This document shows positions 41,742-45,719 of a stretch of 64,000 bases of DNA, in pieces. Under the pieces are notes generated by a model. That model was not told the DNA's origin and made no database searches. It worked only from the letters and a program-made list of their open reading frames with translations. Every line of letters begins with the position of its first letter. The first letter of the stretch is position 1. A program made the position numbers and the translations under genes. Source of the stretch: Croceibacterium aestuarii (GTDB taxonomy: Bacteria > Pseudomonadota > Alphaproteobacteria > Sphingomonadales > Sphingomonadaceae); NCBI RefSeq assembly GCF_030657335.1, contig NZ_CP131039.1:2372501-2436500 (forward strand), given 5' to 3'.

Positions 41742-43127
41742 CTAGCGGCGCTTCTGGCGCCGGTCGTCGAAGGCGGGGAGCTCCAGCGTGAAGCGGGCCC
41801 CCTGCCCCGGCGCGCTTTCGACCGACAACTCGCCGTCCATCGCCCGCGCCAGGCGGCGTGAGATGTAGAGGCCAAGGCCCGAACCGCCATCCCCGCTTCG
41901 GCCGAGCCGCTCGAACTTTTCGAACACTCTCGCCTGCTGTTCGGCGCTCAGTCCCTCGCCCTGATCGGCGACGGTCAGGCGCGCGCGTCCGCCCTCGCGC
42001 TCAGCGCGCAGCCAGACTTGCGAGCCTTCGGGGGCATAGCGCAAGGCGTTGCCGAGCAGGTTGAGCAAGATTTGCAGCACGCGTCGGAACTCGCCGACAG
42101 CCAGCACGCTTTCGTCGTCTTTCGGTGCATCGATGGAAATTCCCCGCTCGCGCGACCGCACGCCGAGAATGCCGGAAGCGCGGCGCGCGACATCGGCAAG
42201 GTCGATCTTGTCGGGCGCGGTGTCGAATTCTTCTGCCTCGACCACTTCGAGATCGGCAAGGTCGTCGATCAGCGCGAGCAGGTGCTCGCCCGCGGTGGCG
42301 ATGTCGGCGGCATACTTGCTGTATTCATCCGACAGCGGGCCGGCGAGCTGCGTCCGAATGGTCTCGGCATTGGCGATGATCCGGCTGATCGGTTGACGCA
42401 AGACCGGCGCTATGTCGCGCCCAATGGCGGTGCTGAAGACCGATTTCGTTGCCGTCGTCCTCGGTGCGGGCGCAGGCGGCTCGTCGGCGACGAAAAGCAG
42501 GTCGAAACCGGTCTTGCCCGGCTCGGCGCGCCCGAGCGGGAGCAGAACCGCTTTCCAGTGGCGCGACGAGCCCGGGATCACCAGTCTCGCCCCGTCGAGC
42601 AAACGCCAATGAAGGTTCTTGCGGCGTGTGTCGCCGGCGATCTCGACGAGCTCGGTCCAACGCCTGCCTTGCCCTTCGCGCAGGCGCTGCGCAATTTCGG
42701 CCAATTCGGCGCAATCGCAGTCGACCGAGAGCACTTCCTGCTGCGGACCGAGACGAGCGGCGAGTTCGGCCACGTGACGCTCGATTGCTTCGTGGCGGCG
42801 CGCGGCGGCCGCCTGGTCTTCGGCGGTCAGGGGGGCCGCTTGCCAATTGGTCAATCCGATGCGACAGCCCTCGCCATCTTCGTCGGGTTCGATCTCGACC
42901 CACGCGGTAACGCTTTCGCTGTCGTCCTGGGCCTGGATCGCCCGCGCCAGTCGCAGACCGTACTTGCGCGACTTGCGGACCAGTTGCAGCAACGCCGGCG
43001 TGGCGATGATGCCTGGCAGGTCGCCCCCGCTGCGCAGTTGCAGCTCGGAAAGCGGCTCCGCCGCCTCGACCAGCCAGTCGCGCCCATCGGTCCGAGCCGT
43101 GGCGATGAATTGGGCTGCGCCCGCCAT
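41742..43127 (-). CDS. Histidine-kinase-like protein lacking the phospho-acceptor histidine
   Basis: This 461-residue soluble protein has an unassigned N-terminus (1-150), a PAS-like middle (about 150-215), a HisKA-type dimerisation helix (about 230-295) and an intact ATP-binding domain. The HisKA H-box, normally SHELRTPL, reads APVLRQPI: Pro241 stands where the phosphorylated His should be, while the following EHLLALIDDLADLEVVEA matches normal kinases well. The ATP site keeps its N-box (LLNLLGNALRYAP), DQGEG, FEKFE and GSGLGL. It therefore should bind ATP but cannot autophosphorylate in the usual way. It is 3 bases downstream of the DUF2336 gene, in a four-gene minus-strand cluster that ends with it. 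Confidence 0.85.
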   Translation of the reverse strand: MAGAAQFIATARTDGRDWLVEAAEPLSELQLRSGGDLPGIIATPALLQLVRKSRKYGLRLARAIQAQDDSESVTAWVEIEPDEDGEGCRIGLTNWQAAPLTAEDQAAAARRHEAIERHVAELAARLGPQQEVLSVDCDCAELAEIAQRLREGQGRRWTELVEIAGDTRRKNLHWRLLDGARLVIPGSSRHWKAVLLPLGRAEPGKTGFDLLFVADEPPAPAPRTTATKSVFSTAIGRDIAPVLRQPISRIIANAETIRTQLAGPLSDEYSKYAADIATAGEHLLALIDDLADLEVVEAEEFDTAPDKIDLADVARRASGILGVRSRERGISIDAPKDDESVLAVGEFRRVLQILLNLLGNALRYAPEGSQVWLRAEREGGRARLTVADQGEGLSAEQQARVFEKFERLGRSGDGGSGLGLYISRRLARAMDGELSVESAPGQGARFTLELPAFDDRRQKRR

Positions 43128-43130
43128 CGC

Positions 43131-44087
43131 CTAGCTTTCGGCCCGCAAATCGGAAGCGGCCAGTAACGCAGCCGCGCGCTGGGGCGTCAGATGGTCGAAA
43201 TTCTCCGGCAGCGATACATCGGGATGGAGATAGAGGAACTGCTCCTCCAGGGCACGCGTCTTGAGCCCTGCCGCGCGCAGGCCCAGGGCGAGGCGGGCGA
43301 ACTGACGATCCGAGAAAGCCAGCACGGTCACGTCGCGATCCTGCCCAATGGCCATGGCCAGCCCGGTCGCGAAGAGCGCGAGCCCGGCGGTATCGATGTC
43401 GAGCGCGCGAGAGGCGCCCTTGCCGAGACGCATGACCAACCGGGTCAAAAGGCCGATACGGCCGAGCCCTTCGTCGAACTCGTCGCGCAACTTGCGTTCC
43501 GCCGCCGCGGCACTTTCGTCGCCGCCGGAGGTCTCTCGGAAGGCGACGAGAGCGCTATGCAACAAGTCGCCCGGCAGTTCGCCGAGCGGCATGGCCATGC
43601 GCTGCAGCTGCTGCATGAAGCGGGCCTGCGCAGCGATGGCCGACATCGCCGCGGCCGCCATGGCATCGTCCTTTGCCGCAACCAGCTCCTGCAGCAGCGG
43701 CGAAAGCACCGGATCGAGTCCGGTGCGGTCCTGCAGCTTGCGCGCCAGTTGCCCTTCCATAGTCAAGGTGTGCAGATGGCCCAGGAAGCCAGCATCGCCC
43801 GCCAGTGCGGCGACGAGCGGCTCGCTGCGCGACTCGGCAAACTCGGCACGGTCCGCCGCCATGGCCGCTTCCGCTTGGGCATAGAGCATTTGGCGAGCCA
43901 CGTCGGTCAGCATCCCGCGAACCCGCGCGACGATCTCGTCGCTGAACAACGCCTGGTCCTCGTTGGCGAGTAGATGGCGCATGATCGGCGCGGCGTTGGA
44001 CAGCACGGAATCACCCTGCGCGAGCTCGTCGCGCATGACGGCCTCGACCGCTTCGAGACTGCTCTCGGTCAGGGGGGCGTTGTCCAT
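43131..44087 (-). CDS. DUF2336 family protein
   Basis: This 318-residue, mostly helical, soluble protein resembles the DUF2336 family of alphaproteobacteria, whose role is unknown. A conserved-looking stretch is RDVTVLAFSDRQFARLALGL near the C-terminus, and another LTRLVMRLGKGASRALDID in the middle. No catalytic motif is visible. ATG 44087 (MDNAPLTESS) is preferred to an upstream GTG/ATG option near 44180 that runs into the neighbour gene, although its Shine-Dalgarno is weak. It sits directly before the kinase-like gene, suggesting the two work together. Confidence 0.7.
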   Translation of the reverse strand: MDNAPLTESSLEAVEAVMRDELAQGDSVLSNAAPIMRHLLANEDQALFSDEIVARVRGMLTDVARQMLYAQAEAAMAADRAEFAESRSEPLVAALAGDAGFLGHLHTLTMEGQLARKLQDRTGLDPVLSPLLQELVAAKDDAMAAAAMSAIAAQARFMQQLQRMAMPLGELPGDLLHSALVAFRETSGGDESAAAAERKLRDEFDEGLGRIGLLTRLVMRLGKGASRALDIDTAGLALFATGLAMAIGQDRDVTVLAFSDRQFARLALGLRAAGLKTRALEEQFLYLHPDVSLPENFDHLTPQRAAALLAASDLRAES

Positions 44088-44121
44088 CGCTAAGCCATAG
44101 TCGAAGTGGGTTAAATGCGCG

Positions 44122-45300
44122 TTAGCCGCGTTTGTCGGAAAATGGCCAGATTCGCACTGCCAGCAGCACCAGGGCGACAATCATGAAGCCTTTTTCCGCC
44201 GCGTCGATCGCAACCGAAAAGGCCAGGGCAAGGACGAGCAGCACACGATCCGCAAATATCGCCTGCCAACCAGCCCGGTCAGGCAGCGGTTTTACGTGAA
44301 GCAGCCCGACGGTGAGCAGTGCCAGGAATAGCCGCCGGTGCAGTGTGCCGGGCAACGCCAGCACCGCCACGACGAGCAGCGCAAGATCGAATGCAGCCCG
44401 CAAGCCTCTGGAGACCCGCGATGGCTTTCGCTCACCGGCAAAGCTCGGACGCAACAGCCGGGAGATCCCGTCGCCCAGTTCGATCGCCAGTGCAGCCAGC
44501 GCGAGCAGAGTGAACCCGGCAATCGGAAAGGCAAACCACGCCGACGCGAGAGCCCCCGCCAAGGCTAGAGCGGCAGCCATCCGCGCGAGCGGAGCGGCCC
44601 GCCGCGAGGCCGTGGCGGCGGCGCCGAAACGACGCAACAGCAGACGCGCGAACCAGCGCGTCGGATTGCGCAGCGAGGCGGCCGGCAGGCGGCGACGCAT
44701 CCAGCCCGGCTCCGCCGCCGCGGCCTGGTCGGCCGTGCGCAAGAGCCCCCAGCGCCCTTCCGCAAGCTCGCTTTCGGGAAGTTGCCGCTCGGGCACGCCG
44801 GCCTGGCGGGCGATCCTCAGGAGGCCGGAGATCGGCTCCGCATCCTCGGGCAGCATGTCGAGGCGGTCCACGAGGCGTCCGGGAATGACCATTGCCCCGC
44901 CCCAGGCGGTGGTCAAATCGAGCAGCTCGAAACCCGCGCCGGCGCCCGGCTGCACCGGCAGGCCGAGGAGAACCGGCTCTTTGAGCAAGGCCTCGAAGGC
45001 AAGCGGCGAATCCGGCAGAAGGCCGCGCGCGAAGACGAGCAATTGATCATCACCGCGAACGGCCGCGGGCAGATCGCGCGCGCCGCGAAGGACCTGGAAC
45101 TGGGTCCCCGCCCTCTCAGCCCCATGGCGCAAGGCGATCGCTTCGGGCGAGGCGCCGTGTCCGAGACAGAGGATTTTCTCGCAGCCTTGCCCGAGAGCGA
45201 ATTCCAGTTGGTGGAGCGACAGCGCGCGGCCGCCGAGAACAGCGGGGTCGCGGGCCGGGTCGAAGCCCGCGTCATCGGTCGCAATCAGGGCAATTCGCAC
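44122..45300 (-). CDS. Membrane protein of unknown function with soluble N-terminal domain
   Basis: This 392-residue protein is not recognised. The N-terminal half (about 1-190) looks like a soluble alpha/beta domain: RIALIATDD, CEKILCLGHGASPEAI, GDDQLLVFARGLLPDSP. That is loosely reminiscent of nucleotidyltransferase folds, but I see no certain active-site motif. The C-terminal half carries five or six membrane helices (from about residue 240). The start is a GTG at 45300. The gene lies between the Hpt-like and DUF2336 genes on the same strand. A CDP-alcohol transferase-like role was considered, but the diagnostic DG..AR motif is not seen. Confidence 0.65.
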   Translation of the reverse strand: MRIALIATDDAGFDPARDPAVLGGRALSLHQLEFALGQGCEKILCLGHGASPEAIALRHGAERAGTQFQVLRGARDLPAAVRGDDQLLVFARGLLPDSPLAFEALLKEPVLLGLPVQPGAGAGFELLDLTTAWGGAMVIPGRLVDRLDMLPEDAEPISGLLRIARQAGVPERQLPESELAEGRWGLLRTADQAAAAEPGWMRRRLPAASLRNPTRWFARLLLRRFGAAATASRRAAPLARMAAALALAGALASAWFAFPIAGFTLLALAALAIELGDGISRLLRPSFAGERKPSRVSRGLRAAFDLALLVVAVLALPGTLHRRLFLALLTVGLLHVKPLPDRAGWQAIFADRVLLVLALAFSVAIDAAEKGFMIVALVLLAVRIWPFSDKRG

Positions 45301-45349
45301 ATGGGGTCACTAGGCCGGGCCTGGCGCGCTGCCAAGCTGCAGCGCTTGG

Positions 45350-45649
45350 TCAGACCTGAATCTTCCCGATGAAACGTTCGAGTTGGCGCAGTACGGCGGG
45401 GTCGCCCGGCGCGCTCTCGAGTGCGAGAACGGCAAGATCGACCAGCCGGGGGGCGTGGAAAGAGGCGCCGAGGCTTTTTAGGCGCTGCGCCGCAATTTCC
45501 CAGTTACCGTCGCAGCGCGCGCGGCGAAGCAGGTCGATCTGACGCGCGAGACTCTCGACGAATGCAGAGCGCAGTTCCTCAAGCAGCTCCAGGTCGTCAC
45601 CGGCAGCCGCGGAAATAGTTGCGTCGAAACCGTTGCTCTGCACAGCCAT
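45350..45649 (-). CDS. Hpt-like protein lacking the phospho-acceptor histidine
   Basis: This 99-residue helical protein resembles a histidine phosphotransfer domain. The usual xHxLKG core appears as AAQRLKSLGASFHAPRLVDL, with Gln55 in place of the phosphorylated His. The preceding LLEELRSAFVESLARQIDLL matches the first helices of Hpt domains. ATG 45649 has GGAG 6 bases upstream, better than ATG 45661. It heads the minus-strand cluster Hpt-like, membrane protein, DUF2336, kinase-like, and is divergent from the large coiled-coil gene across 70 bp. Confidence 0.7.
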   Translation of the reverse strand: MAVQSNGFDATISAAAGDDLELLEELRSAFVESLARQIDLLRRARCDGNWEIAAQRLKSLGASFHAPRLVDLAVLALESAPGDPAVLRQLERFIGKIQV

Positions 45650-45719
45650 CCACAGCTCCATGCGCGCATCAGGGTTAATGAAGGGTTTTTTGCGGACGGG
45701 CCTGTGATATCCTCTGCGA

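Follow-up and report, generated by a model that had tools for sequence, protein, structure and literature searches.

Why should the folds of a phosphorelay be kept at a locus where neither the kinase nor the Hpt protein has a histidine to carry the phosphate? The question is raised by a cluster of Croceibacterium aestuarii lying in the window analysed here (G000:C1:2372501-2436500, the whole stretch of 64,000 nucleotides from a single-contig genome of 3.35 Mb), in which four genes of the minus strand, in reading order pHpt, MEM, P2 and pHK, encode an Hpt-fold protein, a membrane protein, a DUF2336-like protein and a pseudo-histidine kinase. A fifth gene, CC, encodes a coiled-coil protein next to pHpt, and the cluster is convergent to gltA; this gene and gltX, both on the plus strand, were named from reading their translations. 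The cluster with its HisKA/HATPase and Hpt-like proteins had been noticed in a sequence-only reading; the open reading frames are present as it described, and pHK scored over the Pfam cut-offs for HisKA (PF00512, 30.4 bits) and HATPase_c (98.1 bits). We consider, from sequence comparison, that the cluster may be a dismantled phosphorelay kept as a nucleotide-gated, CtrA-linked module for protein binding, a reading in which our belief and our doubt are about balanced. Literature searches found no described function for this family's cluster: among the matches listed, no title or abstract start described it, and a search on DUF2336 found nothing.

Loss of the acceptor histidines over an intact ATP site

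Homologues of pHK were searched in 197 genomes of the order, with E <= 1e-30 counted as a match, and were found in 182. The family f1 contributed 136 of these genomes, 127 of them with a match; it is probably Sphingomonadaceae, judging from relatives named Kordiimonas, Eilatimonas, Iodidimonas and Rhodothalassium, which stand for other families of the order. One hundred loci were fetched, comprising 96 f1 loci of the present type, one from G045, an f1 genome with an ordinary kinase, and three from other families. The window and the 96 f1 loci gave an alignment of 97 rows, and with G045 it covers 98 of the 127 matching f1 genomes.

The loss of the kinase acceptor, seen as Pro241 in the window, extends over the family: G045 apart, the residue in this column differs from His in 95 of 97 rows, the full tally being P in 56, R in nine, G in six, D in five, S and E in four each, A and Q in three each, N and H in two each, and K, V and T once each. 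Positions directly after the acceptor and at +4 have a catalytic role in histidine kinases. The former is never an acid in the 97 rows (A or V in 83), and the latter is Q in 60 and T in five. As the sequence-only reading had also stated, the ATP site is intact, since N356, N360, D388, G390, F402, G417 and G419 are invariant and G392 is kept in 96 rows. Another histidine, H282, is present in 94 of 97 rows; as a matching His was found in all four His-bearing DUF2336-linked kinases compared, it is no replacement acceptor. The N-terminal region of pHK appears to be PAS-like.

The Hpt-like protein behaves similarly. The window pHpt matched the Pfam Hpt model weakly (E 0.077), and eight of 45 family members did so at E <= 0.01 (best 1.9e-5); the AlphaFold model (pLDDT 92) retrieved Hpt proteins in all of the first ten PDB rows, at Foldseek E >= 0.23. 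The acceptor column, Gln55 in the window, contains no histidine in 55 rows, being Met or Leu in 34 (18 and 16), Q in eight, W in five, A in three, and S, E, T, G and Y once each. Histidine is also missing from 13 further f1 copies, 12 of which have moved from gltA and one of which (G109) is at gltA, so that it was found in 0 of 68 f1 copies when G045 is set apart. The copies read, G045 included, represent 69 of the 93 f1 genomes that match the Hpt profile; the profile matches 107 of the 197 genomes, 14 of them outside f1.

The expectation that proline and glutamine would be conserved at the two positions was thus borne out for the non-His state, which is general in f1 except in G045, and failed for the residues themselves (Pro in 56 of 97 kinases; mostly Met or Leu in Hpt). 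By the residues tested, pHK and pHpt are not members of the catalytic families. Coordinates are collected in Table 1.

Table 1. Positions, within the window, of the genes, diagnostic residues and promoter-like sites of the cluster
Feature	Position	Strand	Basis or remark
pHK, pseudo-histidine kinase, 461 amino acids (aa)	41742..43127	-	open reading frame (ORF), Pfam, alignment; HisKA without acceptor His, with HATPase_c
P2, strongly diverged DUF2336 protein, 318 aa	43131..44087	-	ORF open to 44180
MEM, membrane protein, NTP-transferase-like and CDP-alcohol-phosphotransferase-like, 392 aa	44122..45300	-	catalytic motifs absent
pHpt, Hpt-fold protein lacking the acceptor His, 99 aa	45350..45649	-	alternative in-frame ATG at 45661 gives 103 aa
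CC, long coiled-coil protein, 848 aa	45720..48266	+	divergent from pHpt
Pro241 codon of pHK, phospho-acceptor column	42405..42407	-	alignment; position computed from ORF start
HATPase_c domain of pHK, residues 348-452	41772..42086	-	residues of the N, G1, F and G2 boxes invariant
Gln55 codon of pHpt, Hpt acceptor column	45485..45487	-	alignment; position computed from ORF start
CtrA-type tandem half-site TAAC-N6-TTAACC	44109..44125	-	upstream of P2-pHK
CtrA-type tandem half-site AAAC-N6-TTAACC	45673..45689	-	upstream of pHpt, between the divergent genes pHpt and CC

His-bearing relatives and the missing receiver

The origin of the kinase was traced through its neighbour P2. The sequence-only reading had called P2 a DUF2336 protein; this assignment stands through intermediates reached by an iterative profile, and is not given by a direct Pfam match, none being found for the window protein at E <= 1 or, at 0.1, for a close relative of it in L049. 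Homologues that take its place at other loci do match PF10098 (L118 at 7.1e-30, L099 at 1e-13; more weakly and under the cut-off L090 at 1.1e-6 and L121 at 1e-5), as do relatives outside the family, at 5.3e-67 and 2.2e-64. Profile searches of the PDB with P2 and with Hpt gave nothing usable. In L132, L135, L136 and L137 the P2 profile matched a gene lying immediately upstream of an ordinary kinase, and the two of these four products that were scanned with Pfam are clear DUF2336 proteins. A scan by name then provided 40 DUF2336 loci, and in all 33 where the acceptor region of the adjacent kinase was readable the histidine is present within an HELRTPL motif; the others had a partial kinase (L151, L166) or no kinase in view (L159, L170, L175, L176, L177).

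A profile made from family pHK only scored these DUF2336-linked kinases at 147-290 bits (partly covered loci: L172 at 66 bits, L151 at 18 bits, L166 none), the second kinase of L163 at 126 bits, and kinases of the own genome at no more than 113. In the phylogenetic tree all pHK fell into a single clade with full support (Shimodaira-Hasegawa-like approximate likelihood ratio test, SH-aLRT, 100). It should be added that DUF2336 was detected in 61 of 114 sampled genomes of the class and in one of 14 control genomes (Caulobacter), and that a kinase was in view in just five of 30 such short DUF2336 loci of the class sample, so that pairing with a kinase characterises only some DUF2336 proteins.

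Canonical Hpt proteins give the same picture. The acceptor histidine is present in 12 of 12 that were read, 11 outside f1 and one in G045; they come from seven of the 14 outside genomes matching the profile, from G045 and from four further genomes. An ancestral absence of the histidines is rejected, since the relatives carry them in both proteins. Orthologues with a normal histidine had been named as what would refute the original claim. They exist, in other families and in G045, while close f1 orthologues are otherwise non-His; the non-His state is therefore derived and the claim is not wrong.

The third component of the presumed relay is a receiver protein of 183 aa, encoded after Hpt in eight of eight loci (L186-L193). 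In these loci Hpt also has a divergent neighbour that encodes hydrophobic segments close to its start, in seven of seven where the contig continues; in a set of 20 receiver loci (L280-L299) Hpt was found in six. At E <= 1e-15 the receiver was detected in 58 of 61 non-f1 genomes, in 55 of them strongly, the matches of G014, G037 and G081 being weak (1e-17 to 1e-27) and possibly to a paralogue. Within f1 it was found in one of 136 genomes, namely G045, whose copy matches PF00072 at E 4.9e-17. The genome of the window gave no receiver match at E <= 1e-15, other receivers not having been tested as partners. All eight aligned copies, L186-L193, have Asn in place of the phospho-acceptor Asp, which makes this protein a conserved and widespread pseudo-receiver.

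G045 thus retains the receiver together with the histidines of the kinase (L132) and of Hpt (L193). In a citrate-synthase tree it grouped with G089, G099 and G111 (89/83), none of which has a pHK match at E <= 1e-30. In the simplest reading of these sequences the kinase histidine, the Hpt histidine and the receiver would have been lost together in f1 outside G045.

Selection, promoter sites and the membrane proteins

The 96 f1 loci contain MEM in 95, P2 in 80, pHpt in 54 and CC in 83 cases; gltA is convergent within 700 bp in 85, and the order MEM-P2-pHK is kept in 79, in agreement with the conserved gene order for which the sequence-only reading had proposed to look. Ratios of non-synonymous to synonymous substitution (dN/dS) were calculated pairwise by the Nei-Gojobori method and are rough, many dS values being > 1. 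Against L038 the window gave 0.22 for pHK and 0.29 for both P2 and MEM; against L039 it gave 0.20, 0.34 and 0.54 for these genes and 0.33 for pHpt; nine pairs of other f1 members gave 0.07-0.30 (P2 in five pairs, pHpt in three). Overall, the ranges are 0.07-0.33 for pHpt, 0.11-0.25 for pHK, 0.17-0.34 for P2 and 0.10-0.54 for MEM, and by these estimates all four genes are under purifying selection. Together with the conserved non-His state, ATP site and gene order, they make random decay very unlikely, as had been argued from the window alone. Random decay or sequencing error is rejected, the frames being open across the family.

Nine f1 genomes have no pHK match. In G109, G113, G159 and G171 (L222-L225) P2 and pHK are both gone beside gltA, and MEM and CC are kept; the stretch obtained from G089 and G133 lacks gltA, and G099, G111 and G151 were not fetched at the locus. 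In G109 (L222) a pHK remnant of 42 aa, 76% identical over query positions 410-451, lies between MEM and gltA.

The hexamer TTAACC occurs only twice in the whole window, upstream of P2 and of pHpt, and the start of P2 at 44087 was chosen because the conserved promoter-like site sits just upstream. TTAACC or GGTTAA was found within 220 bp upstream of 53 of 81 P2 and 28 of 55 pHpt genes, as compared with 6 of 96 for MEM, 8 of 97 for pHK and a background of 110 in 3870 windows (P2 sites included). The tandem form WAAC-N6-TTAACC is present at 41 of 81 P2 and 20 of 55 pHpt genes, with 64 occurrences in total when both strands of all family loci, 892 kb, are counted. Ten occur in the own genome (reversed control four): two belong to this cluster, and one lies 83 bp upstream of a gene whose product scores over the threshold of the NCBIfam CtrA equivalog model (425 versus 350 bits). 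Published CtrA sites are given as TTAA-N7-TTAA and TTAACCAT in PMC6180460 and PMC9437464; given the N6 spacing, the sites of the cluster are not canonical full CtrA sites, and CtrA is predicted to bind them from their sequence. GANTC methylation sites were not enriched upstream of pHpt (22 of 55, shuffle mean 29.4).

The sequence-only reading had left MEM as a membrane protein of unknown kind. It is a membrane protein, and it resembles a nucleotidyltransferase/CDP-alcohol phosphotransferase whose motifs are missing. Its profile matched the Archaeoglobus IPCT-DIPPS protein (PDB 4MND) at E 4.8e-10, and the AlphaFold model (pLDDT 94) had the same entry as best fold match (Foldseek E 5.4e-8, TM 0.62). 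In 79 aligned rows DGxxAR was found once, the full CDP-alcohol pattern D(x)2DG(x)2AR...G(x)3D(x)3D never, the nucleotidyltransferase signature AGxGxR never and the looser GxGxR once. By these motifs MEM is the third enzyme-like protein of the cluster that lacks its active-site motif. Sixteen MEM-like proteins that belong neither to the alignment nor to the gltA loci without pHK were compared: seven keep DGxDGKLAR (L206, L210, L211, L217, L218, L220, L221), though not the full pattern, L219 has a variant of it, and eight, including L207 of G045, show none. Of these seven, the two scanned with Pfam pass its CDP-alcohol model; L207 fails it. The relatives in L210, L214 and L217 adjoin a second CDP-alcohol phosphotransferase with the full motif, and the pair possibly represents an unstudied phospholipid pathway.

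CC has two hydrophobic segments near the N-terminus (judged by eye), a long coiled coil and a conserved C-terminal domain, a layout that may be comparable to that of TipN. The C-terminal domain was detected in 46 of 114 class genomes and, by homology, in 13 of the 20 receiver loci. Ten of the 12 moved pHpt copies still have as divergent neighbour a long gene whose product carries hydrophobic segments at the N-terminus (by hydropathy, not homology), the layout being unclear in L203 and L204, and in G005 the CC domain itself was found beside the moved pHpt. Outside the order, the receiver was not found beside CC in 20 loci; a canonical Hpt (AH[ST]LKGSA) is near the CC gene in three of the 20 (L344, L346, L348), with a weaker match in one more, so that the proximity of Hpt and coiled-coil genes may predate the order.

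Competing readings and known systems

The course of events that we favour would start from a true His-Asp phosphorelay, composed of a DUF2336-linked PAS histidine kinase, an Hpt and, next to a membrane coiled-coil protein, the 183-aa receiver. Its receiver gene and the acceptor histidines of both kinase and Hpt would then have disappeared, apparently at once, in an ancestor shared by most of f1. The pair of kinase and DUF2336 protein would have been gathered beside gltA with the Hpt and a motif-less MEM, and two promoters with CtrA-type tandem sites would have arisen. The remaining proteins would work without phosphotransfer: a pHK dimer would bind ATP, and its nucleotide state would shape a surface, newly conserved, on the helix that once carried the acceptor, to be read by bound partners, P2 first and possibly pHpt and MEM, which would act on the membrane and the coiled-coil protein, with cell-cycle or motility timing set by CtrA. 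The sequences themselves establish the residue losses, the invariant ATP site, purifying selection, signals of ancestry, the absence of the receiver, the loss of motifs and the conserved sites. We infer from the residues lost and kept a function free of phosphotransfer, and likewise that one pathway would unite the proteins, with gating by ATP, binding partners, control by CtrA and an output of its own. The complete version, in which a full phosphorelay was turned in a single ancestor into a phosphorylation-free cell-cycle or polarity device conserved across most of the family, its pseudo-kinase gated by nucleotide and grouped under CtrA promoters with a pseudo-Hpt and a pseudo-lipid synthase, is put forward tentatively and with more doubt than confidence.

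Several observations weigh against this reading. Being in essence a single evolutionary event, the joint loss amounts to an association, not a pathway, and the citrate-synthase tree leaves the base of f1 otherwise unsettled. Outside f1, the receiver acceptor is Asn (SNW/TNW) in 12 of the 20 loci, 18 of which could be called; Asp (SDW) was found in six, all of family f8, in which G008 has Asn and two loci gave no call by the pattern. The ancestral relay may hence already have been unusual, and, as the best MEM-like protein of G045 is motif-less, the inactivation of MEM may predate the joint loss. The two exceptional kinase histidines (L118, L131) both lack the neighbouring acid. A new histidine of pHpt, His65, is present in 36 of 45 copies, ten residues past the lost acceptor, at a position that is Gly in the eight canonical Hpt compared. 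In the tree, calculated without the acceptor column and four rows, the placement of pHK and the DUF2336-linked kinases on one side is not strong (SH-aLRT 85), and a clade of pHK with DivL is not rejected (approximately unbiased test, p-AU 0.24). The cluster is not a strict unit either: P2 was not detectable at 16 of the 96 loci, and its detection in only 80 and the adjacency of pHpt in only 54 mean that the parts are separable. Furthermore, outside f1 a half-site lies within about 260 bp of eight of 40 DUF2336 starts and in six of 24 Hpt/receiver loci (four within 60 bp of the start); the CtrA-type sites are not clearly supported as an ancestral feature.

It is unlikely, though worth serious attention, that pHK is a second DivL, whose dead kinase core would bind a single-domain regulator in its phosphorylated form, for instance DivK~P, and hand its state on to CckA-ChpT-CtrA, with pHpt as a decoy. 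The CtrA-type sites tie the cluster to that network, the tree permits the grouping, and the helix-2 part of pHK resembles PleC/DivJ-type kinases. DivL itself is a known alphaproteobacterial pseudo-kinase sensing DivK~P, according to PMC4211667; by the same source it binds ATP weakly, whereas the ATP site of pHK is invariant, and the position matching its Y562 (numbered as there, +12 here) is Asn in 74 of 97 pHK, so that the docking face differs. The own genome, moreover, has a separate kinase with Tyr for His (L004), DivL-like by this residue only and named by no NCBIfam model; pHK has Pro, not Tyr, at its acceptor, and that it simply is DivL is not supported, though the tree is compatible with kinship.

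Rather improbable is a GHKL-type ATPase like MutL or Hsp90, in which hydrolysis of ATP would drive a mechanical dimer cycle in place of a nucleotide-sensing switch: the key ATP-site residues are all conserved, which speaks for it, but the N-box is of the histidine-kinase type, and no ATPase-specific change was identified, none having been searched for. That phosphotransfer continues, by way of other residues or in trans with a different kinase or Hpt, appears quite improbable to us. The intact ATP site, H282 and His65 speak for it; against it, H282 has its counterpart in the His-bearing relatives, His65 is Gly in seven of 45 copies and lies outside the modelled helix 47-63, the residues directly after and at +4 from the former acceptor have changed as well, and the receiver gene was not found. 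That the cluster is a decaying relic without function is hardly credible: pieces have indeed been lost in several lineages, but dN/dS of 0.07-0.54, the invariant ATP site, the conserved promoter sites and the order kept at 79 of 96 loci contradict it.

If the favoured reading of a dismantled and reused phosphorelay is right, the locus would add to what is known of single pseudo-kinases, since here phosphotransfer was apparently given up by a kinase, an Hpt and a receiver in one and the same ancestor, and selection still acts on the rest. The canonical relatives in other families and in G045 form a natural before-and-after pair, which could show what histidine kinases do besides transferring phosphate and whether ATP binding alone carries a signal, and the cluster is a candidate CtrA-linked membrane system for f1.

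Among known systems, Caulobacter DivL is alike in being an alphaproteobacterial HisKA/HATPase core without acceptor histidine near the CtrA network (PMC4211667), and pHK probably resembles it, by analogy, as a kinase fold used for binding; unlike DivL, pHK has a DUF2336 partner gene, a variable acceptor column, an invariant ATP site and a different docking face. The Arabidopsis pseudo-HPt AHP6 also has its acceptor histidine replaced and competes with true HPts, according to PMC7402358; pHpt differs in being bacterial, in neighbouring a pseudo-kinase and in an acceptor column of mostly Met, Leu, Gln or Trp. P2 is tied to DUF2336 (PF10098) through intermediates and departs from it in being too diverged for the Pfam model and in a partner kinase without acceptor, and MEM shares the two-domain fold of Archaeoglobus IPCT-DIPPS without its motifs. 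HmrABCX of Caulobacter is likewise an alphaproteobacterial cluster with a kinase, an atypical Hpt and a membrane protein; in contrast to the present cluster, PMC11481889 interprets it as a phosphorelay in which the histidines of HmrB are needed.

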